A stretch of 12,478 nucleotides of DNA, taken from assembly GCA_030628225.1 (NCBI GenBank), contig DAOVRJ010000045.1, forward strand, positions 1 to 12,478. The letters are read 5' to 3'. Shown in pieces: positions 1-12,478 of the stretch. Below the pieces are notes generated by a model. That model did no database searches. It was not told where the DNA came from and worked only from the letters and a program-made list of their open reading frames with translations. Within the stretch, counting starts at the first letter, position 1. The number at the start of each line of letters is the position of its first letter. Origin of the DNA: Candidatus Zixiibacteriota bacterium (GTDB lineage Bacteria; SM23-81). The translations under genes and the position numbers were made by a program.

Positions 1-2027
1 AACTTATCAATGATTGGGTAAGAACTATTGCTATAGATCCAAACACTTCTGCTGTATACGTCTCCAATCCTTATGGACTATATAAAAGTACGAACGGTGG
101 AGTAAATTGGACTTATTTAGGTCATTTAAATGCCTTTATCAGTTCCATAGCCGTTGATCCAAACGATAACAATATTGTTTATGTCGGTATTCGCAGTGAT
201 AGTTCGATGTATAAAAGTGTAAACGGCGGTCAAGATTGGTTCACAGTTAACAACGGGCTTGAAGGAAACGAAATCGAAGTAATCGCTATCGATCCAAATA
301 ATTCCAATGTTCTATATGTTGGAACGCGATCTACGGATGGAGCATATAAAAGTATTGATGGAGGATTACACTGGTCCTGTATTAGTACCGGTATGGATAT
401 TGTGGCAAGAGCTATCGCAATTGATCCCTACAGTTCAGAAACCATTTACATTGGTTCTTCTATTGGAGTTTTTAAAAGTACTGATGCAGGTACCAGCTGG
501 GTTGCTAAAAATAACGGTTTGCTTAGTCAAGATATATCATTCCTTTTTATTCATCCCGAGAGTACAACCGTCATATATGCAAGCAATTATGCGGGCATTC
601 ATCGAAGTAACAATGGAGCCGACAACTGGATTCCCGTCGGGTCGTATCCGAGCCATCGTACTGTCCTATCATTGAGTCATGATCCATCAAATCCCGAAAG
701 AATTTATGTCGGTTATTACCATGCTGAGGGATTATTTAGAAGTGATAGTCTAGGTGTAGATTGGACTGAATTATCGATTCCAAACACTGACATAACAAGT
801 ATCGGCATTCCTGCTTCTCTAAACAATATAATCTACGCAGGTTCTCGTTCAGGAACCTGTGAAGCCGGAATCTTTAAAAGCACAGACGGAGGAGCACATT
901 GGATAGAGCTTGACGTAAATGGAGTCAACGAAGTGGCGGCAATTTCTATTGATCCCCTGCAGCCAGAAGTTTTATATGCTTGTGCGAAAGAGGCGGTTTT
1001 TAAAACAACAGATGGCGGAAATAATTGGACGCCTACAGCGCCTGCAGGGGGAGGATGTTCAGTTACTTCATTAGCGATAGATCCAAATGCAACAGAGACA
1101 ATTTATGCCGGTTTAGTGCCTGATGATTGGGGTCTTCCTTACGGATTATACAAAAGCATTGATGGTGGATTGACTTGGTCAGTAATGAATAATGGTGCTC
1201 CAGCTCCAAATGGAGACGGAGTCTTATGTTTTGTGTTAGACCCCCAAAATAGTAATATCATATATGCAGGCTGGGGTTCGGGGATTTATAAAAGCACCGA
1301 TGCTGGAACGACCTGGGCTAGTGCTTCTATGGGACTACCATTTGGATCCGTCTATGCTCTGGCAATTAATCCTAGCAACTCCTCAATTCTCTATGCTGGA
1401 TTGGGCTCATCAGAACTTTTTAAAACTATCAATGGAGGCGATTCCTGGTTTAAAGTTAGCGATGCTCTTGTGGAGTACGGTTACATAAGTTCAATTGTTA
1501 TTAACAATGCAAATCCAGACGAGTTGCATGCAGCTACGTTTCCATCTTCAACCGGAGGTGTATTTAGAAGCCAAGATGGTGGTACAAGCTGGCATAATGT
1601 AAATGAGGGATTGAGCTCTATTTCAATTAATACTCTCGCATTGGACCCTTCGAATAACAACCTAATTTATGCGGGTTCAAGAGGAGCAGGGATTCTTGTA
1701 GGAAGCTCATTTACCAATAGTATTGATGACGAAAATGATGCACTGGTAAATGACTTTTCATTATATCAAAATTATCCAAATCCATTTAATTCTGAAACAA
1801 CAATAAATTACTATTTGCCCAAAGCATCAAATGTTGTATTAGCTATTTATAACATTTCAGGGCAGCAAGTAAAGGTCCTTGCTAATGAGAAGCAATCAAA
1901 AGGTTTTCACACTGTTAACTGGGACGGAAAAGATAGGTTCTGCAATAATGTGAGTTCAGGTATTTATTTTTGTCGTTTACAGGCCGGCGCGCAATTTCAT
2001 TGTAGTAAAATGCTGCTGTTGAAATAG
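1..2027 (+). CDS. Asp-box beta-propeller secreted protein with type IX secretion C-terminal domain (5' partial)
   Basis: The reading frame is open from base 3 (674 codons visible) and ends with TAG at 2025-2027, so the true start and any signal peptide lie left of the window; the first in-frame ATG at 207 is internal. About twelve Asp-box (BNR) units follow one another, each shaped like Y/F-K-S-x-D-G-G-x-x-W and preceded by an I-D-P-x-x-x-x-x-I/L-Y-x-G strand, as in sortilin/VPS10-like or sialidase-like propellers. Residues about 584-674 of the fragment form a FlgD-like Ig fold with NYPNPFN and YFCRLQAG, the known type A sorting domain (TIGR04183 family) of type IX secretion. The protein is therefore probably exported and surface-attached or released. 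No catalytic residues are recognisable and the ligand is unknown. The gene is AT-rich compared with the sugar operon downstream. Confidence 0.88.
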   Translation, partial: LINDWVRTIAIDPNTSAVYVSNPYGLYKSTNGGVNWTYLGHLNAFISSIAVDPNDNNIVYVGIRSDSSMYKSVNGGQDWFTVNNGLEGNEIEVIAIDPNNSNVLYVGTRSTDGAYKSIDGGLHWSCISTGMDIVARAIAIDPYSSETIYIGSSIGVFKSTDAGTSWVAKNNGLLSQDISFLFIHPESTTVIYASNYAGIHRSNNGADNWIPVGSYPSHRTVLSLSHDPSNPERIYVGYYHAEGLFRSDSLGVDWTELSIPNTDITSIGIPASLNNIIYAGSRSGTCEAGIFKSTDGGAHWIELDVNGVNEVAAISIDPLQPEVLYACAKEAVFKTTDGGNNWTPTAPAGGGCSVTSLAIDPNATETIYAGLVPDDWGLPYGLYKSIDGGLTWSVMNNGAPAPNGDGVLCFVLDPQNSNIIYAGWGSGIYKSTDAGTTWASASMGLPFGSVYALAINPSNSSILYAGLGSSELFKTINGGDSWFKVSDALVEYGYISSIVINNANPDELHAATFPSSTGGVFRSQDGGTSWHNVNEGLSSISINTLALDPSNNNLIYAGSRGAGILVGSSFTNSIDDENDALVNDFSLYQNYPNPFNSETTINYYLPKASNVVLAIYNISGQQVKVLANEKQSKGFHTVNWDGKDRFCNNVSSGIYFCRLQAGAQFHCSKMLLLK

Positions 2028-2197
2028 TTCTTACTTGATTCTGGACGATTTTGTAAGTCCGCATCTAACACCTATGAGGTCTCCCTTGTCAAAAGAAAAT
2101 AGTTCTCCACCAAGCCGGTGGGGTGGCCGACTTTGACTTTCATAAAAACTTAACAGCCTGACTTGGTTTCTCGCTAATTGGTGTGGGCTGTTGCTGT
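2028..2197. other. Gene-free stretch between propeller gene and first attC-like site
   Basis: No convincing gene lies here, nor up to the antitoxin start at 2423. A small inverted repeat CCACC/GGTGG (2107-2111 and 2117-2121) has no following T-run, so I do not call it a terminator for the propeller gene. ATCTAAC near 2063 and ACTTAAC near 2149 match the attC left-core consensus RYYYAAC, but I see no paired right core or arms for either, so they may be chance or decayed remnants. Confidence 0.5.
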
Positions 2198-2205
2198 CCC
2201 ACACC
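2180..2205. repeat. 8-bp perfect inverted repeat (hairpin) at the left edge of the first attC-like site
   Basis: GGTGTGGG (2180-2187) and CCCACACC (2198-2205) are perfect reverse complements around a 10-base loop. There is no T-run on either side, so an intrinsic terminator is unlikely. The right arm occupies the position where the left core (R'') of the first attC-like element should be. Confidence 0.6.
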
Positions 2206-2347
2206 CGCGCATGCAGCCGATGGCGGATTCCATTCTCTTTCCATTCCTTCCATTCTTTCCATGATGGCAGTGGGCAGGACCCAACCTGACCCCGCCAAAA
2301 GGCATTCGTGATTGACCTCGCCGCGGCTGATGCGCAGACCGTTATCT
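2198..2347 (+). repeat. attC-like recombination site 1 (left core degenerate)
   Basis: This is one of two long, closely related elements; the other is at 3091-3235. The right core is GTTATCT at 2341-2347. It fits the invariant GTT of the GTTRRRY consensus but not all of RRRY. The inner arms are GCGCATGCAGCC (2207-2218) and GGCTGATGCGC (about 2325-2335). They are reverse complements except for one extra base (G) in the left arm. This one-base asymmetry is the extrahelical base typical of attC sites. The left core position reads CCCACAC and lacks the conserved AAC, so only the right half is canonical. The interior contains TCCATTC-type repeats. By family knowledge it would belong to a cassette upstream whose gene is not recognisable. 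Confidence 0.6.
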
Positions 2348-2379
2348 CTATCAAAAACTACTTGCATTCATCCTACCAT

Positions 2380-2402
2380 TATAATACATTCTTACCAGTA
2401 AG
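2380..2402 (+). promoter_or_regulatory. Probable promoter -10 and operator palindrome of the AbrB/PIN cassette
   Basis: A perfect TATAAT lies at 2380-2385. TTGCAT at 2362-2367 is too close (12 bases) to be an ideal -35 element, so the -35 is uncertain. Just downstream, CTTAC-CA-GTAAG (2391-2402) is a 5-bp-arm palindrome between the -10 and the Shine-Dalgarno AGGAGG (2412-2417). A site here would suit autorepression by the AbrB-type antitoxin. The operator role is inferred. Confidence 0.45.
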
Positions 2403-2422
2403 ATTATTCATAGGAGGTATCA

Positions 2423-2686
2423 ATGAGCAAAGTAGCTACCACAAAATTGTCGTCCAAAGGGCAGGTCGTTATACCAAAGGAAGTACGAAAACAGCTCGGC
2501 CTCAAAACCGGGGACCCCTTTATTGTCATCGGAAATGATGATGTGATCATTCTCAAGAGCATTGCCCCACCTTCTATGAAAGATTTCAATCATCTCATCC
2601 AACACGCTCGCCAGAAAGCCAAGATGGCCAAGATGAAGCGTTCCGACATCACCAGAACTACTGCCAAAGTTAGAGGACGCAGATGA
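2423..2686 (+). CDS. AbrB/SpoVT-family (MazE/VapB-like) antitoxin
   Basis: This 87-residue protein has a swapped-hairpin AbrB DNA-binding domain at about residues 5-48, with the characteristic S-S-K-G-Q-V-V-I-P-K-E-V-R-K-Q-L-G-L-K-x-G-D run. The C-terminal half is rich in lysine and arginine and probably contacts the toxin. The ATG at 2423 follows AGGAGG at 2412-2417 with 5-base spacing. The stop overlaps the toxin start in an ATGA (2683-2686), so the two are translationally coupled, antitoxin first, as in most type II modules. It should neutralise the PIN nuclease and repress its own promoter, probably through the palindrome at 2391-2402 (inference). It lies in the first integron-type cassette. 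Confidence 0.88.
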   Translation: MSKVATTKLSSKGQVVIPKEVRKQLGLKTGDPFIVIGNDDVIILKSIAPPSMKDFNHLIQHARQKAKMAKMKRSDITRTTAKVRGRR

Positions 2687-3096
2687 GGCTCATCGTTGAT
2701 ACGAATGTATTCATTTCTGGCATCTTCTTCTCTGGACCGCCATATGATATTCTAAACGCCTGGCGTCATAGAAAAGTAGAGATGGTCATTTCATCCGACA
2801 TCCTGGATGAATACCGGAGAGTTGGAGAAGAGTTGGCAAAACAATATCCGGGCATCGACATGGGCCCTATTGTGGAGCTTCTTGCTATCAAAGCGAGAAT
2901 CTTTGACGCTTCTCCTCTGGATGAAAATGCATGTTCTGATCCTGATGACGACAAATTTATCGCCTGTGCTATCGCTAGTAGAACAAAATTGATATGCAGC
3001 GGCGATAAGGCATTGCTTAGGACATCTGGCTACCGAGGCATTACAGTTTTGAAGCCCAAAGATTTTGTGGATATCTACTTGGAAAAGAAGAGATAA
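2683..3096 (+). CDS. PIN-domain toxin ribonuclease (COG1569-type)
   Basis: This 137-residue protein starts with the PIN signature M-R-L-I-V-D-T-N-V-F-I-S-G. The expected acidic metal-binding residues are present: D6, E43 (in S-D-I-L-D-E-Y), an aspartate cluster around D86-D90 (in S-D-P-D-D-D-K-F) and D108 (in S-G-D-K). The length is normal and the active site looks intact. By family knowledge such proteins are Mg-dependent endoribonucleases acting on tRNA, rRNA or mRNA; the target here cannot be read from sequence. It overlaps the antitoxin by 4 bases. Its stop codon TAA (3094-3096) is embedded in the left core AGATAAC of the attC-like site that closes the cassette. Confidence 0.88.
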   Translation: MRLIVDTNVFISGIFFSGPPYDILNAWRHRKVEMVISSDILDEYRRVGEELAKQYPGIDMGPIVELLAIKARIFDASPLDENACSDPDDDKFIACAIASRTKLICSGDKALLRTSGYRGITVLKPKDFVDIYLEKKR

Positions 3097-3235
3097 CCAG
3101 CGCATTCAGCCAACGGCGGATTCCATTCTCTTTCCATTCCTTCCATTCTTTCCATGATGGCAGTAGGCAGGACCCAACCCGTCCCACCCAAAAGGCGTTG
3201 ACTCTCCACCGCGGCTGATGCGCTGACCGTTAGGT
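3091..3235 (+). repeat. attC-like recombination site 2 (canonical cores and arms)
   Basis: The left core is AGATAAC (3091-3097) and the right core is GTTAGGT (3229-3235, a perfect GTTRRRY). The left arm CAGCGCATTCAGCC (3098-3111) pairs with GGCTGATGCGCTG (3213-3225) apart from one extra T in the left arm. This is the extrahelical base that orients attC sites. A 3-base spacer ACC separates the right arm and core. The roughly 100-bp interior holds TCCATTC units and shares an identical stretch of nearly 50 bases with site 1 (about 2222-2270 versus 3115-3163). At 145 bp it is at the long end for attC, near the size of Vibrio superintegron repeats. The left core is complementary to the start of its own cassette (2341-2347). 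Confidence 0.72.
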
Positions 3236-3263
3236 ATATCGAGCCATATTCTAAATTTAATGC

Positions 3264-3292
3264 TTGCACGGTATCCGTGATAATATTATATT
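3264..3292 (+). promoter_or_regulatory. Promoter with embedded operator palindrome for higBA
   Basis: TTGCAC (3264-3269), a 17-base spacer and TATATT (3287-3292) form a good sigma-70-type promoter. A perfect palindrome CACGG-TAT-CCGTG (3267-3279) overlaps the -35 element and spacer. That position suits an operator at which the HigA antitoxin would block RNA polymerase. The promoter lies inside the cassette, so it can be expressed wherever it is inserted. The operator role is inferred from position and symmetry. Confidence 0.6.
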
Positions 3293-3324
3293 CTACATGA
3301 GCCCCTCGAACTGGAGTTGTTAGA

Positions 3325-3618
3325 GTGATTTCATCCTTTGGAGACAAAGCTACCGAAGATATCTATCATGGAAGAAAGACGAAAGAAGCCCGAAAATATC
3401 CTGCAGACATCATCAAGACTTCACTCAGGAAGCTAGATCTGTTGAATGCAGCCGTGGATCTCAGAGATCTTCGATCACCCCCTGGTAATCGTCTTAAGGC
3501 ATTAAAGGGCAATTTGAAGGGTTTCTATGGCATCAGGGTGAATGACCAGTGGCGAATCATTTTCAGATGGGAGGCAAAGAACGCATATGACGTAATGCTC
3601 ACAGATTATCATTACTAA
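3325..3618 (+). CDS. higB: HigB-family toxin (RelE/ParE superfamily mRNA interferase)
   Basis: This 97-residue protein starts at GTG 3325, nine bases after GGAG (3312-3315). That start gives the classical HigB N-terminus (M-I-S-S-F-x-D-K-A-T-E-D-I-Y-H-G). The C-terminal half carries the typical R-L-K-A-L-K-G, G-I-R-V-N-D-Q-W-R-I-I-F-R-W and D-Y-H signatures of the HigB/COG3549 group. By family knowledge it is a ribosome-dependent mRNA endonuclease. It comes before its antitoxin gene, the reversed order typical of higBA. The length is normal and no lesion is visible. It is the first gene of the second cassette, 90 bases after the preceding attC right core, with its own promoter at 3264-3292. 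Confidence 0.9.
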   Translation: MISSFGDKATEDIYHGRKTKEARKYPADIIKTSLRKLDLLNAAVDLRDLRSPPGNRLKALKGNLKGFYGIRVNDQWRIIFRWEAKNAYDVMLTDYHY

Positions 3619-3638
3619 GAAAAGAAAGGATCAAAAAA

Positions 3639-3926
3639 ATGTTACCTGAGAGAAGAATCCCAACACATCCTGGGGAGATACTCCAGGAAGAATTTATCAC
3701 GCCTCTAAACCTCACCCAAGTCGAGCTTGCCAATCACCTCGGAGTTCCCGTACAGCGTATCAACGAGTTAGTTCGTGGTAAACGAGGGATAACTCCACAG
3801 ACAGCTTGGCTGCTCTCGCAGGCCTTTGATACGACGCCGGAGTTCTGGATCAATTTGCAGACTTCTTACGATCTTGCCAGGAACCGTCCGCCAAAGAAGG
3901 TGCCCAAGCTTAGTCAAGTTATTTGA
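3639..3926 (+). CDS. higA: HigA-family antitoxin (XRE-type helix-turn-helix)
   Basis: This 95-residue protein begins with the diagnostic H-P-G-E-I-L-x-E-E-F (residues 10-19) of the HigA/VapI group (COG3093). A helix-turn-helix follows at about residues 26-48 (T-Q-V-E-L-A-N-H-L-G-V-P-V-Q-R-I-N-E-L-V-R-G), then the T-P-E-F-W-I-N-L-Q motif. The ATG follows AAAGGA (3625-3630) with 8-base spacing, and 20 bases separate it from the higB stop. It should bind and neutralise HigB and repress the shared promoter, likely at the CACGG/CCGTG palindrome (3267-3279; inference). It lies at the 3' end of cassette 2, shortly before the possible third attC-like site. Confidence 0.92.
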   Translation: MLPERRIPTHPGEILQEEFITPLNLTQVELANHLGVPVQRINELVRGKRGITPQTAWLLSQAFDTTPEFWINLQTSYDLARNRPPKKVPKLSQVI

Positions 3927-3943
3927 ATGTTGAGTTTTAGACC

Positions 3944-3994
3944 ACCGAACCCGCGCTGGCTTTTCCGCAGCGCTCCAAAACCGGCCTGTTAGGC
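3944..3994 (+). other. Possible degenerate attC site closing the higBA cassette
   Basis: The right core is a perfect GTTAGGC (3988-3994). The left core ACCGAAC (3944-3950) differs at one base from ACCTAAC, the reverse complement of the core that starts this cassette (GTTAGGT, 3229-3235). An inner hairpin GCGCTG (3953-3958) / CAGCGC (3968-3973) is present. Against the call: the right spacer is 14 bases versus 2 on the left, the element is only 51 bp, and it is unrelated in sequence to the two upstream sites. It may be a decayed or recombined attC, or a coincidence. Confidence 0.35.
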
Positions 3995-4017
3995 CTGGCA
4001 TTCGATAAGAGGAGAAA

Positions 4018-4518
4018 ATGGAAGAGAAAAAAACAGTATCAACGGTCAAACGGGTCGGTGGGTATCTCCATCGGGTGGTCCCTATTCATGACAGTACGGG
4101 CAAGGTCATGAACTACGTGCTCAAACCGTTGATGGTAGAATTTCGTCCCCGGGACCTGATGCAGATCATCGTCGGTGCTTCGATCCTTGCCGTCCCCGTT
4201 GCCTTCACGGAGGAAACGTGGCACCTGGGGACGAAGCTGCCGACGGTCAACATTCTCATGCTGAGTGCCGTGTCTATTTTGTTCATTGCATTTTTCGTGT
4301 ACTTCAACTTCTACCGTTTTATTTTCAAAGGTCACGTTTTTGAATACTGCAAGCGCGTTTTCGCGATATACTTGTTCTCATTGCTTATTGTCGGTCTGAT
4401 TCTCACCATCATCCAGAAGTGTCCGTGGGGATCGGACAACCTGCTTGCCCTGAGGAGAATTTTCATCGTGGCCTTCCCGGCCTCCATGAGTGCTGCCGTG
4501 AGTGACATACTCAAATAG
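4018..4518 (+). CDS. DUF2391-like integral membrane protein
   Basis: This 166-residue protein has a basic, soluble N-terminus of about 45 residues and four hydrophobic segments at about 47-63, 77-99, 114-132 and 148-165. The stretch from R-P-R-D-L-M-Q-I-I-V-G-A through P-V-A-F-T-E-E-T-W-x-L-G and the C-terminal A-F-P-A-S-M-S-A-A-V-S-D resemble the DUF2391/TIGR02587 family of uncharacterised membrane proteins, as I recall that family. No enzymatic motif is visible and the function is unknown. GAGGAG (4009-4014) lies 3 bases before the ATG. The gene starts only 24 bases after the GTTAGGC core, so it may be the next cassette. I find no closing attC after it and no clear promoter of its own. Confidence 0.75.
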   Translation: MEEKKTVSTVKRVGGYLHRVVPIHDSTGKVMNYVLKPLMVEFRPRDLMQIIVGASILAVPVAFTEETWHLGTKLPTVNILMLSAVSILFIAFFVYFNFYRFIFKGHVFEYCKRVFAIYLFSLLIVGLILTIIQKCPWGSDNLLALRRIFIVAFPASMSAAVSDILK

Positions 4519-4540
4519 GATCTTCGAGCTGTTGCAGCGA

Positions 4541-4592
4541 GCTGATCATCGCGTAGGCGCCGAAAGCACACGCAGAACGATCGCTGATCATC
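4541..4592. repeat. Spaced direct repeats of GCTGATCATC
   Basis: GCTGATCATC occurs at 4541-4550 and again at 4583-4592, 42 bases apart, about four helical turns. The core TGATCATC appears a third time at 4700-4707, upstream of the GH57 gene. The inner TGATCA is palindromic. The spacing suits a regulator bound to one face of the DNA in front of the glucan operon, but no regulator is known from this window. Confidence 0.35.
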
Positions 4593-4640
4593 ACTTAACT
4601 ATATGATGAGATCTGACATACGAATGGAAAAAAGGAGAGA

Positions 4641-4739
4641 ATGAAAGTCCTCGTAATAATGATAAATTCTTCGAAGTTGAGAAAAAAAGGCGCGCGGCAT
4701 GATCATCTTCAATGCAACAGATATATGTATGATCTTTGA
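4641..4739 (+). CDS. Possible 32-residue leader ORF upstream of the GH57 gene
   Basis: ATG 4641 is preceded by AAAGGAGAG (4631-4639), a strong though close Shine-Dalgarno sequence. The frame runs 32 codons (beginning M-K-V-L-V-I-M-I-N-S) to TGA at 4737-4739, two bases before the AGGAGG of the GH57 gene. The product is short, basic and unlike anything I recognise. The compact arrangement would suit a coupled leader peptide, but chance is not excluded. Confidence 0.28.
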   Translation: MKVLVIMINSSKLRKKGARHDHLQCNRYMYDL

Positions 4740-4752
4740 AAGGAGGCGCTCG

Positions 4753-7700
4753 ATGACAAAGCTTCAACGATTGGTTATTTTGCTTTTATTGCCATTGCTA
4801 TTGCCCATTGCCATTGGGGGAAGAACCTTCGGCGGGGAGGGCGGCCCTGCAATCACCGACGATGGCATCCTGTTCTCCTGCATGGCGCCCGGCGCAGGCC
4901 AGGTCTTTTTGGCGGGGACCTTCAACAACTGGGCTCCGAATAAAGACCTGATGACCCAGACGGAAGATGGCCTATGGCAGATGATCGTGAAACTTCCAGA
5001 TGGCCATCACCAGTACAAGTTCGTGGTGGACGGCAATTGGCAGCACGACCCGGACAATCCGGCCACGGCCGACGACGGATACGGGGGTTATAACTCGGTC
5101 CTGGCCATCAAGGAAGGCAAGATCATCCCTGTAGAAACGGAACCCGCCCGGGTGATGCCCACCCACATCGCGCCTCCACCAAAGAATCCCCTCTACCTGG
5201 CCATCATCTGGCACCAGCACCAGCCCATGTACGACCGCGATCCGGAAACTCTCACATACGCCAAGCCCTGGGTGCGCATGCATGCCGTTAAAGACTACTA
5301 CGACATGGCCTCCATCCTGCTGGACTACCCCAACGTACACGCCACCTTTAACCTGGTGCCCTCGCTCATCTTTCAGCTAGACGATTTGATCTCCGGGGCC
5401 ACTGACCGCTACATGGTCCTGTCGGAGAAGCCCGCCGGTGAACTCACCCCTCAGGACAGGGAGTTCATCCTGCGCCGATTCTTCGACGCCAACTGGAACA
5501 ACCTCATCGGCGTACACCCCGGATACAACGCCTTGCTGGACAAACGCGGCCGCACGGTCACCGACCAGACCATTGCGGCAGCTCTGCAGAAATTCACCGT
5601 CGGTGATTTCCGTGACCTGCAGATGTGGTTCAACCTGGCCTGGCTGGACCCCGATTTCAAGGCCCAGGAGCCCTTCAAATCCCTCATCGCCAAGGATCAC
5701 GGCTTCACCGAACAGGAGAAGATCCTTGTGCTGGACAAACACCGCCGGATCATGGAACAGGTTGTCCCGTTACACCGCAAAATGCAGGAGCACGGGCAGA
5801 TCGAGGTGACCACCACACCATTCTATCATCCCATTCTCCCTTTGATACTCGATACGGATCTGGCCCGCCGGGCCATGCCCCATGCCACCCTGCCGGAACA
5901 CTTTTCATATCCTCAGGACGCCGTAGCCCAAGTGACACTGGGCGTTCAGTCCTACCAGGAGCATTTCGGCCGTCTCCCCCGGGGAATGTGGCCCGCCGAG
6001 GGCTCGGTGGCCCAGGAGATCGTGGGCATGGTGGCTGACGCCGGCATCGTGTGGATGGCCTCCGACGAGGAGGTCCTGGAAAACTCTCTGGGCCAGCAGC
6101 TCATCCGCGAGGGGGATGACCTGCAGAACCCGGAGCTCCTCTACCGGCCCTATCTGGTACAGGAGGATGGCAAGGAGGTGGCCGTGGTCTTCCGCGATCA
6201 CCTCCTCTCCGACAAGATAGGCTTCGCCTACTCTGGAATGAAGGGAGCGGATGCGGCCAATGACCTGATCAACCACATTCACACCGCCGCCCGAAAGCTG
6301 GAGGACAAAGAGGGACCCTTTCTGATGACCCTCATTTTGGACGGGGAAAATGCCTGGGAGCATTACCGCAACGACGGCAAGGATTTTCTGCACACCCTCT
6401 ACCGGCGGCTTAACGACGATCCCGCTGTGATCACCGTCACCCCCAGCGAGTTCCTGGACCAGTTCGCGGCCCAGAAGAGGATCGAGAAGCTGTGGGCCGG
6501 CTCGTGGATCAGCGCCGACTTCCACATCTGGATCGGGGAGGAGGAGGAGAACCGGGCCTGGAACCTGCTTCTGCAGGCCCGGCAGGAGGTGGAGAAATAC
6601 AGGCAGACCCACGGCGAGGACCAGCGCTATCAACAGTCCCTGGAGAACATCTACGCCGCCGAGGGCAGCGATTGGTTCTGGTGGTACGGGAACGATCAGA
6701 ACTCCGGCGACGACAGTAGCTTCGATGCCATCTTCCGCAACACCCTGATGCGGACCTACAAAAGCCTCGGCCAGCAGGTGCCCGCCGCGCTGTACATCCC
6801 CCTCATCCCCCGGGAGACGCCGCCGCCGGACCGGGAGATCACCGGGCGCATCAGCCCCTGGATTGATGGCAGCATCGAGGAAACCGAGTGGGCCAAGGGC
6901 GGCTACTATGATCACCCGAAGGGAGAGATCGTTCAGCGTCTCTACTTCGGGAACGACGAGAATAACCTGTCTGTGGCCGTTCAGTTCAAAGAAGATCTGC
7001 CGGAGATGGCCGGCCGGGATCTCTTCGTCGCCCTCTATCTGGCCACCCCCGGAGCCGAGAGAGCCAACTCACTGACACGATATGGATCTGCGGAAAGCCC
7101 GCTGGGCTACGGGCTCAACTGGGAGCTGGGCATTGACTTTCGAGATCCCACCAGATACACGCTGAGCCGCGCCGGCGGAGATGAGACCTGGGAGACAGTC
7201 AAAAGTGGCCCGGCCGTGGCCTTTTCCGGAAATTCCCTGGAGCTGGCCCTGCCCTTCGAGGACATCGCCGCCAGAGCCTACGATGTGGTGAGATTCACTT
7301 TGCTGGTGGCCAAGAACGGCCGCGATCTGGACCGGGTGCCGGCCGGCCCGGTGAAGATCTCGGTGCCGTCGTCCGCGCGGGGGCAGGTGGTGCTGGAGAT
7401 GACCGATCCCATCGGGGATGACCATGGCCCCGGCTCCTACATCTACCCCACCAACGCCGTGTTCAAGCCCGGCGTCTTCGACCTGATCAAATTCACCGTC
7501 ACCGACGATGGAGAGAACGTGCTCTTTACCGCCAGGATAGCCGGACCTCTGGAGAATCCCTGGGGCTCGCCCATCGAGCTGAGCGTGCAGACCCTGGACA
7601 TCTACATCGATACCGATGGCCAGGAGGGCTCCGGCCTCACACAGCTCTTGCCCGGGCGAAACGCCCGGGTTGCCCCTGGGGACGCCTGGGAGTATTGCAT

Positions 7701-8091
7701 CTGGGTGGAGGGCTGGCAACAGGAGATCCACGGGGTCGGCCCCGGCAATCAGCCCAAACGGCTGGGCGAGGTGAGGACCAATGTCGTCTCCCAGGAGCAC
7801 ACCATCACCGTCACGGTGCCCAAGACGATCATCGGGGACCGCCCGCAGGACTGGGGTTATCTGGTGGTCCTCACCGGCCAGGAGGGCTTCCCCTCGGCGG
7901 GCAACTGGCGGGTGCGGGATGTCCTCTCCGCGGCCCAGGAGTATCGCTTTGGCGGCGGCCGTGACGACAACCTGGACCCCAACATCATCGATATCCTGGT
8001 CCCCGAGGGAATGAGTCAGGAGGAGATTTTGGGAGCGTATGAGGAGACGGGGGAGGAAGTTGTGGTGCCGATGGTTAGAATCATGAAATGA
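4753..8091 (+). CDS. Secreted GH57 amylase/amylopullulanase-type enzyme with CBM48-like and glucodextranase-C domains
   Basis: I place the start at ATG 4753 (1112 residues). AGGAGG (4741-4746) precedes it at good distance, and this start gives a signal peptide with K3 and R6 followed by a hydrophobic core to about residue 23. The in-frame ATG at 4699 would spoil that signal. Residues about 36-117 form an AMPK/CBM48-like glycogen-binding domain (F-L-A-G-T-F-N-N-W-A-P; Y-K-F-V-V-D-G-N-W). The GH57 region shows H-Q-H-Q-P (154-158), G-Q-I-E-V with E351, G-M-W-P-A-E with the predicted nucleophile E416, L-D-G-E-N-A-W-E with the predicted acid/base D530, and D-W-F-W-W-Y-G (640-646). Residues about 695-870 look like a beta-sandwich (DOMON/CBM9-like). 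About 878-1105 match the glucodextranase C-terminal domain known from archaeal amylopullulanases. It should cleave alpha-1,4, perhaps also alpha-1,6, glucan bonds outside the cytoplasmic membrane. Specificity cannot be read from sequence. There is no type IX sorting domain. Confidence 0.9.
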   Translation: MTKLQRLVILLLLPLLLPIAIGGRTFGGEGGPAITDDGILFSCMAPGAGQVFLAGTFNNWAPNKDLMTQTEDGLWQMIVKLPDGHHQYKFVVDGNWQHDPDNPATADDGYGGYNSVLAIKEGKIIPVETEPARVMPTHIAPPPKNPLYLAIIWHQHQPMYDRDPETLTYAKPWVRMHAVKDYYDMASILLDYPNVHATFNLVPSLIFQLDDLISGATDRYMVLSEKPAGELTPQDREFILRRFFDANWNNLIGVHPGYNALLDKRGRTVTDQTIAAALQKFTVGDFRDLQMWFNLAWLDPDFKAQEPFKSLIAKDHGFTEQEKILVLDKHRRIMEQVVPLHRKMQEHGQIEVTTTPFYHPILPLILDTDLARRAMPHATLPEHFSYPQDAVAQVTLGVQSYQEHFGRLPRGMWPAEGSVAQEIVGMVADAGIVWMASDEEVLENSLGQQLIREGDDLQNPELLYRPYLVQEDGKEVAVVFRDHLLSDKIGFAYSGMKGADAANDLINHIHTAARKLEDKEGPFLMTLILDGENAWEHYRNDGKDFLHTLYRRLNDDPAVITVTPSEFLDQFAAQKRIEKLWAGSWISADFHIWIGEEEENRAWNLLLQARQEVEKYRQTHGEDQRYQQSLENIYAAEGSDWFWWYGNDQNSGDDSSFDAIFRNTLMRTYKSLGQQVPAALYIPLIPRETPPPDREITGRISPWIDGSIEETEWAKGGYYDHPKGEIVQRLYFGNDENNLSVAVQFKEDLPEMAGRDLFVALYLATPGAERANSLTRYGSAESPLGYGLNWELGIDFRDPTRYTLSRAGGDETWETVKSGPAVAFSGNSLELALPFEDIAARAYDVVRFTLLVAKNGRDLDRVPAGPVKISVPSSARGQVVLEMTDPIGDDHGPGSYIYPTNAVFKPGVFDLIKFTVTDDGENVLFTARIAGPLENPWGSPIELSVQTLDIYIDTDGQEGSGLTQLLPGRNARVAPGDAWEYCIWVEGWQQEIHGVGPGNQPKRLGEVRTNVVSQEHTITVTVPKTIIGDRPQDWGYLVVLTGQEGFPSAGNWRVRDVLSAAQEYRFGGGRDDNLDPNIIDILVPEGMSQEEILGAYEETGEEVVVPMVRIMK

Positions 8092-8125
8092 AAAATGCAA
8101 AATGAAAAGTGAAAAATTAAAAATT
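8084..8125. repeat. A-rich simple repeat of AAATGAAAAATGC type at the 3' end of the GH57 gene
   Basis: Variants of AAAATGCAAAATGAAAAGTG run from the GH57 stop codon into the spacer. The same family recurs at 11369-11407 and, inverted, at 11465-11499. The copy overlaps the last codons of the gene. Function unknown. Confidence 0.6.
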
Positions 8126-8144
8126 TGCCCTACCCCAAAACAAG

Positions 8145-8329
8145 TTTTAGAGTTTACTAAGTTTACTGAGTTATAGAGTTACCACCCCACCGAGCGTGGA
8201 GTTCGGAACTCGGAACGCGGAACTGAAAAGCAAAAACAATAATATCTGGGATGGAGTGGGGGGAAGCTCCGCACTCCGAGCTCCCAGCTCCGAGCTCAAG
8301 AAACCCTCTAAACTCTCTAAACTCTTACC
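8145..8329. repeat. Layered, mirrored simple repeats (long imperfect inverted repeat) upstream of malE
   Basis: This gene-free 185-bp region reads A-B-loop-B'-A'. The outer arms are GAGTTTA-type repeats (8145-8183) against their complement CTCTAAACTC-type (8304-8329). The inner arms are GGAACTCGG-type (8192-8224) against AGCTCCGAG-type (8265-8297). By hand, 25 of 33 inner-arm positions match and most differences are transitions. The loop is about 40 bases. In RNA it would form a long hairpin ending just before the malE Shine-Dalgarno sequence (8331-8336). It could be a terminator/processing element, an attenuator or a dispersed repeat. Confidence 0.65.
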
Positions 8330-8341
8330 AAGGAGACGCAC

Positions 8342-9589
8342 ATGAAACATCCTCTCACCTTGATAATCCCCCTGGCTCTCGTTCTACTCTTCATCGCCTG
8401 CGGTAAAAAAGAGGAAAAGGTCACCGGTCAGGTCACCCTCACCTTCTGGCACACCATGAATCAGGAGGAGATGGTCACGCTGGACGGGCTGGTCGGCAAG
8501 TTCATGGAGCAGAATCCGCAGATCGAGATCCAGGCCCAGGTGGTGCCCTTCTCCGATGCGCAGAACAAGTTCAAGACGATGGCCCAGGCAGGGGACGCAC
8601 CGGACATCTTCCGGGCGGAGATAGCCTGGACCCCGGAGTTCGCCGAGCTGGGCTTTTTAGTGCCGCTGGACGATTACGTTTCCGAGGAGGATCTGGGGGA
8701 CTATCTGCCCGGCGCTCTGAGATACAACCAGTATAAGGATCACCTGTGGGGCATTCCTCAGGTGACCGACTGCCTGGCCCTGCTGTACAACAAACGGATG
8801 CTGGCTGGGGCCGGCGTGGACCCACCGGCCACCATGGACGACCTGGTTCGCGTGGCCGGGACAATGACCAGCCCGGGCAAGGGGCGGTACGGCTTCTTCT
8901 GGCGGGGCGACTCCTACTGGCTGACGCCCTTCATCTGGGCATACGGGGGCGGACTCATCGACGAAGACGACCAGCAGATCCACATCAACGACCAGGGATC
9001 GGTGGCCGGCCTGAATTTCTACATCGCCCTGCGTGACGAGTACGGCGTGGTGCCCCCGGAGGTGGATTTCGCCAACGACTACGATAACATGCTGGTGGGC
9101 TTCAAGACGGGCAAGTACGCCATGATCATCAACGGCCCCTGGGCCACGGCCGACATCCTGGCCGGAGAACAGTTCTCCGACCCGGCCAATCTGGGCGTGA
9201 CCCGCATTCCCCGGGGGCCGGCGGGATACGGCTCGCCGGTGGGCGGGCACAATTACGTTATCGCCTCCAGCTGTAAAGACGTCCCCGCGGCCTACGAGTT
9301 CATCCACTTCCTCAACCAAGCGGAGCACCAGGCCCTGTTCGCCCAAAAGAACAACCTGCTGCCCACACGCAGATCGGCCTACGACCTTCCGGGCGTGGCG
9401 GACAACCCCATCATCCAGGGCTTCCGCTACCAGCTGGAGGTGGCCAACAACCGGCCGGTGATACCCGAGGGCGGTCTGCTCTTCGTGGATTTCACCCCCA
9501 ATCTGCAGGCGGCCCTGAACGGCAACAAGACGCCGCAACAGGCCCTGGACGCTACCGCCGAGGCCTGGGAGGAGCTGTTGAGACGGTGA
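8342..9589 (+). CDS. malE: Sugar ABC transporter substrate-binding lipoprotein (MalE-like)
   Basis: This 415-residue protein has a lipoprotein signal peptide: hydrophobic residues 5-19 with lipobox F-I-A-C and modified cysteine C20, so the mature protein is anchored to a membrane in the envelope. The body is a family-1 solute-binding protein. It shows T-F-W-H-T-M near the start, the A-G-D-A-P-D-I-F segment, P-Q-V-T-D-C-L-A-L-L-Y-N-K (from residue 139) and M-I-I-N-G-P-W (261-267). It captures sugars for the two permeases downstream. Maltodextrin is inferred from the GH57 neighbour, since this family also binds many other sugars. AGGAGA (8331-8336) precedes the ATG by 5 bases. The stop is 10 bases before the malF start, so they form one operon. 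Confidence 0.88.
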   Translation: MKHPLTLIIPLALVLLFIACGKKEEKVTGQVTLTFWHTMNQEEMVTLDGLVGKFMEQNPQIEIQAQVVPFSDAQNKFKTMAQAGDAPDIFRAEIAWTPEFAELGFLVPLDDYVSEEDLGDYLPGALRYNQYKDHLWGIPQVTDCLALLYNKRMLAGAGVDPPATMDDLVRVAGTMTSPGKGRYGFFWRGDSYWLTPFIWAYGGGLIDEDDQQIHINDQGSVAGLNFYIALRDEYGVVPPEVDFANDYDNMLVGFKTGKYAMIINGPWATADILAGEQFSDPANLGVTRIPRGPAGYGSPVGGHNYVIASSCKDVPAAYEFIHFLNQAEHQALFAQKNNLLPTRRSAYDLPGVADNPIIQGFRYQLEVANNRPVIPEGGLLFVDFTPNLQAALNGNKTPQQALDATAEAWEELLRR

Positions 9590-9599
9590 GGAGAGGAAC

Positions 9600-10505
9600 T
9601 TGTCCCTGCTGAGCAAAATCCGCCGCCATCGCCTGGCCTACCTGTTGATCCTGCCCACGGCCCTGGTCATGGCCGGCATCGTCTTCTATCCGCTTATCCG
9701 CGGCGTGCTGATCAGCTTCACGAACATGAACCAGTACAACATGGGCAGCAAGTTCATCCCGCCTTCGTACCGGTTCGTGGGGTTGCAGAACTACGTCAAG
9801 GTGCTGACCAGCAGCCAGTTCTGGGATATCCTCGGCCAGACGCTCATCTGGACCATCACCAATGTCTTCTTCCACTTCACCATCGGGCTGGCCCTGGCCC
9901 TGCTGCTCAACCGCCGGTTCCGCGGCCGGGCCATCTACCGGACGCTCTTGCTGATCCCCTGGGCCGTGCCCACCTACATCTCCGCCTTCTCATGGCGGTG
10001 GCTGTTCAACTCCAAGTACGGCTTCTTCAACCTGGCCCTGAAAGCGTTGGGGGCCGACCCCATTCCCTGGCTGTCCCACCAGGTCTGGGCCATGGTGGCC
10101 GTCATCGCCACCAATATCTGGCTGGGCTTCCCCTTCATGATGGTGGTGCTGCTGGGCGGTCTGCAGAGCATTCCCAGGGAGATGTACGAGGCCTCGGAGG
10201 TGGACGGCTGCGGCCGGATCCGCCAGTTCTGGACCATCACCCTGCCCCTGCTCAAACCGGTGGCCCTGACGGTCACCCTTCTGGGCATCATCTGGACCTT
10301 CAATATGTTCAACATCATCTACCTGGTCACCGAGGGCGGCCCCCACCACCAGACGGACATCCTGGCCACCTTCGCCTTCATCGAGGCCTTCCACCAGTGG
10401 CGCTTCGGCATGGCCACCACCTACGCGGTGATAATCCTGAGCATCCTGCTCAGCTTCAGCTTCTTCTACATCAGGACCCTGAAGGGCTCGGAGGAGATCT
10501 ACTGA
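9600..10505 (+). CDS. malF: Sugar ABC transporter permease (MalF/UgpA type)
   Basis: This 301-residue protein starts at TTG 9600, preceded by an AGGAGAGGA sequence (9589-9597), and has a short basic N-terminus (S-K-I-R-R-H-R). Six hydrophobic segments lie at about 13-33, 75-102, 110-135, 160-188, 220-243 and 275-293. The EAA loop that docks the ATPase is at about 197-216 (E-A-S-E-V-D-G-C-G-R-I-R-Q-F-W-T-I-T-L-P-L-L-K-P). It is shorter than enterobacterial MalF because it lacks the large periplasmic P2 loop, as is usual for this subfamily in other bacteria. It forms the membrane channel with the next gene product. The ATPase partner is not in the window and may be a shared MsmX/MalK-type protein. 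Confidence 0.88.
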   Translation: MSLLSKIRRHRLAYLLILPTALVMAGIVFYPLIRGVLISFTNMNQYNMGSKFIPPSYRFVGLQNYVKVLTSSQFWDILGQTLIWTITNVFFHFTIGLALALLLNRRFRGRAIYRTLLLIPWAVPTYISAFSWRWLFNSKYGFFNLALKALGADPIPWLSHQVWAMVAVIATNIWLGFPFMMVVLLGGLQSIPREMYEASEVDGCGRIRQFWTITLPLLKPVALTVTLLGIIWTFNMFNIIYLVTEGGPHHQTDILATFAFIEAFHQWRFGMATTYAVIILSILLSFSFFYIRTLKGSEEIY

Positions 10506-10506
10506 G

Positions 10507-11340
10507 GTGAGACGTCGAAAGAACAACTGGATCCTGCACCTGGTACTGACCGCCTGCTGCCTGGCGGCCATCTTCCCCATCATCTGGGTGCTGTCCACCT
10601 CGTTTAAACCGGAGCCGGAGGTGTTCAGCGACCGGCTGAACTTGATATCCGAGCACACCACCCTGGACAACTACCGGCACGTGCTGACCATGAAGGGCGG
10701 GGTCTTCTTCATCTGGCTGCGCAACAGCACCATCATCGCCCTGATCACCACGGTCATCGGCGTGTTTTTGGCCGCCACCGCCGCCTACGCCTTCTCCCGG
10801 TATCGCTTTCTGGGCCGCCAGGGCGGTCTGTACATCTTCCTCATCGCCCAGATGTTCCCCGGGGCCATCCTGGTCGTGCCCCTGTATAACCTGATGCGCC
10901 AGTTCGGCATGCTGAACAGCTTCGCCGGCCTGATCCTGGCCTATTCCACCGTCTCCCTGCCTTTCTGCGTGTGGATGCTGAAGGGCTTCTTCGACACCAT
11001 CCCCCGCGGCCTGGAGGAGGCCGCCATGGTGGACGGCCTGTCCCCCCTGGGCACCTTCTACCGCATCGTGCTGCCCCTGTCCCTGCCCGGCCTGGCCGTG
11101 ACCGCCTTCTTCAGCTTTATCACCGCCTGGAACGAGTTCATGTTCGCCTTCACCTTCATGAGCAAGGAGCGGCTGTACACCCTGCCCGTGGGCCTGCGCC
11201 AGTTCGTCTTCCAGTTCCAGACCGATTGGCACCTGATGGCCGCCAGCGCCGTGCTGATAACCATCCCGGTGGTGATATTCTTTTTGCAGACGCAGAGGTT
11301 TTTGGTGGCCGGGCTGACTGCGGGAGGGGTGAAGGGATGA
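10507..11340 (+). CDS. malG: Sugar ABC transporter permease (MalG type)
   Basis: This 277-residue protein starts at GTG 10507, one base after the malF stop. Its Shine-Dalgarno sequence GGAGGAG (10490-10496) lies inside malF, so translation is probably coupled. Six hydrophobic segments are visible. The EAA loop is at about 170-190 (E-E-A-A-M-V-D-G-x-S-P-L-G-T-F-Y-R-I-V-L-P-L-S-L-P). The C-terminus (Q-R-F-L-V-A-G-L-T-A-G-G-V-K-G) is strikingly like that of MalG, which supports the maltodextrin assignment more than the other two genes do. It pairs with the upstream permease and ends the operon; a hairpin follows at 11349-11367. Confidence 0.9.
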   Translation: MRRRKNNWILHLVLTACCLAAIFPIIWVLSTSFKPEPEVFSDRLNLISEHTTLDNYRHVLTMKGGVFFIWLRNSTIIALITTVIGVFLAATAAYAFSRYRFLGRQGGLYIFLIAQMFPGAILVVPLYNLMRQFGMLNSFAGLILAYSTVSLPFCVWMLKGFFDTIPRGLEEAAMVDGLSPLGTFYRIVLPLSLPGLAVTAFFSFITAWNEFMFAFTFMSKERLYTLPVGLRQFVFQFQTDWHLMAASAVLITIPVVIFFLQTQRFLVAGLTAGGVKG

Positions 11341-11348
11341 GGGGCGGG

Positions 11349-11367
11349 CGACATTCTTCGAATGTCG
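11349..11367 (+). terminator. Hairpin directly after malG
   Basis: CGACATTC, loop TTC, GAATGTCG is a perfect 8-bp stem starting 9 bases after the malG stop. It is followed by an A-rich rather than T-rich tract, so it is not a classical intrinsic terminator. It may protect the 3' end of the operon mRNA or mark a termination site with other factors. Confidence 0.4.
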
Positions 11368-11368
11368 A

Positions 11369-11499
11369 AATGAAAAATGCAAAGTGCAAAAATTAAAATG
11401 AAAAATGGTGTCCAGCCCAGGAAAGTAGCGATTTCAGAATCGCGATATGTCAGGGACTAAATCAATTTGACTTTTTCATTTTGCACTTTTCATTTTACC
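11369..11499. repeat. Inverted A-rich/T-rich repeats enclosing a small hairpin
   Basis: The left arm (about 11369-11407, AAAATG/GCAAA units) and right arm (about 11465-11499, TTTTCATTTTGCAC units) are imperfect reverse complements around about 57 bases. Inside, GCGATT (11428-11433) pairs with AATCGC (11438-11443) in a small hairpin. There is no ORF. The arms belong to the same repeat family as 8084-8125. A MITE-like or structured-RNA element is possible. Confidence 0.5.
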
Positions 11500-11517
11500 T
11501 TTGGGGAAAAGGGTTGG

Positions 11518-11697
11518 GAGGGGGAAGTTTCCCCCTCGCTCCGGCCGGCGTGGCGCTTCGCGCCACCGGCTGGCTATGGCCTACGGCCATACTGTCCTCA
11601 CTATTCGTTCGGCCAGCCGCCAACCTCGCTGTCCTCCGCTACCCCCTCTGCGGTACGACTTGCCAGCAGCACTCAGTTGAGGTCTATGGCCGCAGAG
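11518..11697. other. Hairpin-rich element of unknown function
   Basis: At least five inverted repeats are packed into 180 bp. They are GAGGGGGAA/TTCCCCCTC (11518-11537, 2-base loop), GTGGCGC-TTC-GCGCCAC (11550-11566) and TATGGCC-TAC-GGCCATA (11575-11591). The last is enclosed by CGGCTGGC/GCCAGCCG (11567-11574 and 11612-11619). CTCTGCGG/CCGCAGAG follows (11646-11653 and 11690-11697). Frames crossing it read like low-complexity translation of hairpins rather than a protein. It could be a dispersed REP-like element or a structured RNA; I do not recognise a known family. Confidence 0.5.
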
Positions 11698-11740
11698 ACA
11701 CAACACCCTCTGACCTTTAGGCTGCAACCCAAGGGGTCGA

Positions 11741-11835
11741 GGATTCAAGGATTCCAGGGTTCAAGGGACCCCCGACCACAACCCCGGTGAGGCTGCCAGG
11801 CTTTCAATTGCCTTTCCCCTCGAATCCTTGAATCC
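11741..11835. repeat. Inverted GGATTCAAGGATTC repeat pair
   Basis: GGATTCAAGGATTC (11741-11754) and its exact complement GAATCCTTGAATCC (11822-11835) enclose 67 bases with no gene. Together with the two preceding elements this accounts for most of the gene-free stretch from 11341 to 11904. Confidence 0.6.
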
Positions 11836-11844
11836 TTTTTCACA

Positions 11845-11879
11845 TAAAAACAACGCCCGCCAGGGGCATCTGACGGGCG
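11845..11879 (-). terminator. Intrinsic terminator of the minus-strand secreted-protein gene
   Basis: Read on the minus strand, CGCCCGTCA and TGGCGGGCG form a 9-bp stem (one G-T pair) with an 8-base loop, followed by TTGTTTTTA. It lies about 25 bases after the TAG of the minus-strand gene, as expected for a rho-independent terminator. Confidence 0.8.
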
Positions 11880-11904
11880 GTTTCGCATCAAACTCTGAAC
11901 GAAG

Positions 11905-12478
11905 CTACCGCAGCAGGACCATCTTCACCGTCTGCCCAAACTCCCCGGCCTGTAGCCGGCAGAAATACACCCCGCTGGCCAAGTCGCGGGCATGCCAACG
12001 GGCGCTGTAGACTCCTGCTTTCTGAGAAGCATCCACCAAAGTGGCCACCTCCGCGCCCTGCACGTTGTATACCCTCAAGGTGACGGACACGTCGCTGGGA
12101 ATAGCATATTTGATCTCGGTATCAGGATTGAAGGGATTGGGATAGTTCTGATACAGAGCATATGACTCCGGCATCGTGCCGCCCAGCAGCGTCGGCTGCT
12201 CAACAGCGGTGCTGGGCCCCACGTGAAACTCGAAGTTGGACACATACGGCGGTCCCGGAGGCACCAGGCTGGCCGGCACCTTCTGGTACTTCACCGGGTT
12301 CTCCGTCCAGGTACCCTCATGAGGATTGGTCTGGACTACCCCGCCGGCGTCCTTGTCCTCGATATAGATGACGTGCAGGGTGTCGTTGACCACCCTGGCC
12401 AGGGAAGGATAATCCTCATCCATGCACGCGCCGGCTATGGCCTCGGGGCTGGGGGTGTCGGTCAGGTTGGTGCCCTCC
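11905..12478 (-). CDS. Secreted protein with type IX secretion C-terminal domain (5' partial)
   Basis: The minus-strand frame is open to the window edge (190 codons visible) and stops with TAG at 11905-11907. The ATG at 12423 is internal, because the frame continues upstream of it. The visible N-terminal part includes Y-P-S-L-A-R-V-V-N-D-T-L-H-V-I-Y-I-E-D-K. This resembles one blade of a beta-propeller describing a recorded value, but it is too short to assign. The last 85 or so residues are a FlgD-like sorting domain with NYPNPFNP, a central S-V-T-L-R-V-Y-N-V-Q-G strand and YFCRLQAG, ending K-M-V-L-L-R. This closely parallels the first gene of the window, so the product is probably exported by the type IX system and its sorting domain removed or used for anchoring. 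It converges with the malEFG operon. Confidence 0.85.
   Translation of the reverse strand, partial: EGTNLTDTPSPEAIAGACMDEDYPSLARVVNDTLHVIYIEDKDAGGVVQTNPHEGTWTENPVKYQKVPASLVPPGPPYVSNFEFHVGPSTAVEQPTLLGGTMPESYALYQNYPNPFNPDTEIKYAIPSDVSVTLRVYNVQGAEVATLVDASQKAGVYSARWHARDLASGVYFCRLQAGEFGQTVKMVLLR

Follow-up and report, generated by a model that had tools for sequence, protein, structure and literature searches.

The 12,478-nucleotide stretch analysed here (the window: contig DAOVRJ010000045.1, positions 1 to 12,478) comes from an uncultured relative of candidate division Zixibacteria, whose genome of 2.34 Mb is assembled in 306 contigs and 92% complete. It carries a predicted type II toxin-antitoxin pair, two neighbouring genes that belong to known antitoxin and toxin families, and an earlier note made from the sequence alone took this pair for an integron gene cassette lying between two related elements. 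Are these elements attC sites, and if so, where is the integrase? CALIN denotes a cluster of attC sites lacking an integron integrase, a class that in IntegronFinder 2.0 is standard from two attC sites upward (PMC9024848). The locus is very probably such a cassette-array remnant without an integrase, with two co-oriented attC sites, a complete AbrB/PIN cassette and a HigBA insert.

Anatomy of the attC sites and the cassette

The two elements, attC1 and attC2 (Table 1), have the same orientation and a spacing of 893 nt. They are 90% identical over 104 nt, which bears out the relationship proposed earlier. Both have the stem GCGCAT-x-CAGCC/GGCTGATGCGC, in which a single base of the left arm is unpaired. 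In attC2 this base is an extrahelical T in an 11-bp L stem (GCGCAT-T-CAGCC pairing with GGCTGATGCGC), and the site has an R'' ending in AAC and an R' beginning with GTT. The single extra base on the left and the right core GTTAGGT had both been read correctly by the earlier note. It is only in attC2 that the cores are intact beside the stem; attC1 has kept L'', L' and R', but the sequence beside its L'' is CCCACAC, which is no proper left core. Its R''-like core is displaced by an insert, here called X. The earlier description of both elements as attC sites is supported; the interruption of the first had been missed. Folding of the bottom strand of 3091-3235, a check proposed at the time, gives the attC hairpin and is better than that of shuffles (z -2.6). 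That of attC1 is only weakly better than shuffles (z -1.2).

The ends of the cassette are complementary as claimed: compared letter by letter, GTTATCTCT (2341-2349) is the exact reverse complement of AGAGATAAC (3089-3097), 9/9. The PIN toxin gene overlaps the antitoxin gene, and its TAA stop codon (3094-3096) does lie inside the left core, R'' of attC2. No excess of sigma-70-type promoters over shuffles was found in the cassettes. When it comes to the toxin-antitoxin content, the earlier note was right about the AbrB/PIN pair and did not mention a second one. This HigB/HigA pair directly follows the R' core of attC2, in a cassette-like placement, and is probably a cassette whose own attC would have decayed. 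A candidate for a third attC past HigBA (around 3940-3995) was rejected; its arms misfit, and it is absent from the matches of both the attC scanner and the covariance model described below, the latter run with filters off. A search of the whole window against Rfam matched no family.

Table 1. Features of the window and of related loci in the host genome and in G001. E-values marked R2 are from the covariance model.
Feature	Position	Strand	Remarks
Secreted BNR/Por-tail protein gene	upstream of attC1		truncated by contig start
R''-like core ATCTAAC of attC1	2063..2069	+	separated from L'' by the 136-nt insert
Insert X	2070..2205	+	136 nt, between R'' and L'' of attC1; terminal hairpin GGTGTGGG...CCCACACC
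attC1	2199..2347	+	R2 E 2.0e-9 genome-wide, E 7.9e-6 in window
attC1, parts			L'' 2207-2218; L' 2325-2335; R' GTTATCT 2341-2347; local R'' lost
Gene cassette 1	2342..3229	+	about 888 bp, cleavage point to cleavage point; complementary 9-nt ends
AbrB/MazE-type antitoxin gene	2423..2686	+	87 aa; PF04014 E 3.5e-12; TIGR01439 E 2.1e-14
PIN-domain toxin gene	2683..3096	+	137 aa; PF13470 E 1.7e-19; TIGR00305 E 1.2e-14
attC2	3091..3235	+	R2 E 8.0e-11 genome-wide; scanner score 11.5
attC2, parts			R'' AGATAAC 3091-3097; L'' 3100-3111; L' 3213-3223; R' GTTAGGT 3229-3235
HigB-like toxin gene	3325..3618	+	PF05015 E 2.7e-21; first gene past attC2
HigA-family antitoxin gene	3639..3926	+	TIGR02607 E 3.2e-29, above cut-off
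DUF2391 membrane protein, GH57 protein, solute-binding protein, two genes resembling its transport permeases	from 4018		ordinary genes
Lone attC-like site, contig C210	L065 827-1030
Lone attC-like site, contig C284	L066 12044-12214
G001 array 1	L059 11660-16083		five sites in 4.5 kb, single same-strand genes between
G001 array 2	L060 65-2177		sites at 65, 1270 and 2074, one or two genes between

Attachment sites or dispersed repeats

The attC scanner is independent of any sequence family; it looks for AAC, a stem with an extrahelical base, and GTT on both strands of the window at a threshold of 8.5. The only match at or above this threshold was attC2. Dinucleotide shuffles totalling 25.3 Mb reached its score of 11.5 nine times, or about once per 2.8 Mb, giving an expectation of about 0.004 per window. 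The positive control was an unrelated genome (G028) with a full-length intI, in which the scanner detected a site some 3.3 kb downstream of this gene. The scanner is an insensitive tool, recovering at the same threshold only some sites of the arrays in G001, candidate division Zixibacteria bacterium SM23_81 (LJUY01000001.1), which belongs to the same family as the host and to another genus.

The covariance model, R2, was trained on seven G001 sites only and on none from the genome of the window. Searched over the whole 2.34-Mb genome with E-values up to 1, it matched exactly two places, attC1 (2e-9) and attC2 (8e-11), and the model-based check suggested earlier has therefore come out in favour of both sites with an independent model from another genus. 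The complementarity of cassette ends could also be assessed over eight R'/R'' pairs, where 36 of 56 non-core positions were complementary as against 23 under permutation (p 0.0017), the R'' registers having been picked by eye. Among the G001 sites one stem pair changes from C-G to G-C in two sequences; no covariation was seen among the four sites of the host genome alone.

A family of dispersed palindromic repeats (REP or MITE type) with no relation to integrons might by chance flank a toxin-antitoxin operon. The search for more copies proposed in the earlier note yielded two further ones in the genome, both lone attC-like sites near ordinary genes and with poor left cores, as would be expected of such repeats, and copies 1 to 3 have a loop sequence in common. 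The complementary cassette ends, the tandem order on one strand and the GTTA/TAAC cores are at odds with a repeat family. The same applies to the stems, which are conserved while the loops vary between sites, and to the cassette arrays in G001 and the integrase fragment found in the phylum (see below). The genome search with R2 and the complementarity of the cassette ends largely refute the repeat-family explanation, and its probability is very small. A proposal that contig C210 joins the window via the common core GTTAGATG/CATCTAAC was also rejected, since the genes running off and into the ends are dissimilar.

The integrase and the related genomes

A search of the host genome with an integron-integrase model found two proteins only, identified by NCBIfam as XerD and XerC, and no partial IntI was found at its contig edges. 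A complete integron, with intI and attI beside the array, is accordingly not seen in this genome. The sites at 2199-2347 and 3091-3235 are less than 4 kb apart and have no intI, and with only XerC and XerD in the genome the locus is a two-attC CALIN. The description as an integrase-less attC array is thus right for this 92%-complete assembly, and the absence of an integrase from it leaves current mobility unsupported.

G001 has attC sites on several contigs, spaced about 1 kb apart and separated by one or two genes on the same strand; no IntI was found in this genome, also 92% complete, at E 1e-40. Array 2 runs straight into a large gene that by sequence resembles a restriction-modification enzyme. 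G003, from another family of the same phylum, encodes the C-terminal part of an integron integrase, truncated at a contig edge (L058 3-437, minus strand). This fragment scores 209 bits with the IntI model and 84-86 with those for Xer, and another contig of G003 has an attC match (E 1.9e-6). Together the fragment and the match indicate that integrons occur in the phylum. The integrase search outlined in the earlier note has in this way given a fragment in G003 but nothing in the genome of the window; G001 has cassette arrays.

It could be argued that the integron is functional and that the integrase and the first cassettes lie in the unassembled 8%, so that their absence is an assembly artefact. 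This explanation agrees with the attC and cassette reading and differs solely on the missing integrase. The assembly is fragmented, as given above, the contig of the window opens within the gene preceding attC1, and contig C284 terminates within a copy of the X repeat. A contig edge likewise truncates the integrase fragment of G003, and CALINs are known to be overcounted in draft genomes (PMC9024848). Against it stand the lack of partial IntI genes at the contig edges of the host and of a detectable IntI in the equally complete G001, and a hidden integrase is judged unlikely.

General integron biology suggests that the cassettes would have entered the array through an IntI acting on circular cassettes, whose attC bottom strands fold into the hairpins that it recombines. 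As the host genome has no IntI, they would now be mobile only if the enzyme were supplied in trans. The toxin-antitoxin pairs may act in addiction, loss of the array then being penalised.

Among cassette functions, toxin-antitoxin pairs rank with the commonest (PMC8618304). Sedentary chromosomal integrons, for instance those of Vibrio, likewise carry two-gene toxin-antitoxin cassettes in attC arrays, while the pairs here are AbrB/PIN and HigBA and the lineage is an uncultured one outside the phylum list of that review (PMC8618304). Like other CALINs the window has its attC sites on one strand, less than 4 kb apart and with no integrase nearby; it differs from a typical one in being minimal, with two sites, and in the splitting of the first, whose R'' and L'' are parted by an insert (PMC9024848). 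In the integrons of archaeal metagenome-assembled genomes CALINs are the commonest form and the distribution is patchy (PMC9668308). The window resembles these archaeal and other metagenome-derived integrons, mostly CALINs, whereas its host is bacterial and its attC loops are genus-specific (PMC9668308). Among the papers searched, four name both integrons and Zixibacteria, and none of these has a title on integrons of that group; Zixibacteria are also omitted from the phylum list of PMC8618304. The element type is well known and the lineage seems little recorded. As CALINs, integrons of metagenome-assembled genomes and toxin-antitoxin cassettes are all known, the novelty lies in a modest extension of host range and one unexplained insert. 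The locus extends the host range of integron cassettes to an uncultured lineage close to candidate division Zixibacteria, and the same phylum contains an integrase fragment. It is also a further case of toxin-antitoxin pairs retained in an array that is no longer self-mobile.

The insert in attC1

Insert X is also found at the equivalent position in an attC of G001 (L059 13890-14032), with 83% identity over 117 nt. The core displaced there, GCCGCCTAAG, complements the preceding R' at 6/7 non-core positions. The last 41 nt of X are in addition found at a third attC, on contig C284 of the host genome (L066 12203-12243, 90% identity). The three X-bearing attC sites, from two genera, have the insert in an identical position, the R''/L'' junction, and their loops are different, so that a single inherited insertion is not a ready explanation. 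Outside the two host genomes X was found in none of the other 288 of 290 sampled genomes, nor in plasmids or viral contigs; a pattern match in Verrucomicrobiota lies within an unrelated coding gene and was discarded.

The elements known to target attC are the IS1111-attC insertion sequences (PMC11187229) and integron-associated group II introns (PMC7923331). Like the IS1111-attC elements, X has a fixed place at one attC end; it differs from them in being just 136 nt, with no IS110/IS1111 transposase found in either genome and, on inspection by eye, no subterminal inverted repeats (PMC11187229). Limited tests gave no sign that X is an IS1111-attC element or a group II intron. An IS110/IS1111 remnant is unsupported, such a transposase being present in neither genome, and X as a structured RNA was dismissed as it folds no better than shuffles. 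X may perhaps be a small mobile element directed at attC, where it would always settle between R'' and L'' and so immobilise or reshape the cassettes of the lineage, a suggestion that we make tentatively and hold to be somewhat doubtful. X is in any case a lead toward elements preying on cassette sites.

The lone attC-like site on contig C210 adjoins the end of a gene for a T9SS-tail protein, and attC1 likewise follows one at a greater distance. The window further holds intergenic A-rich repeats of the AAATGCAAAATGAAAAGTG type in direct and inverted copies (8093-8124, 11368-11407 and 11463-11502).
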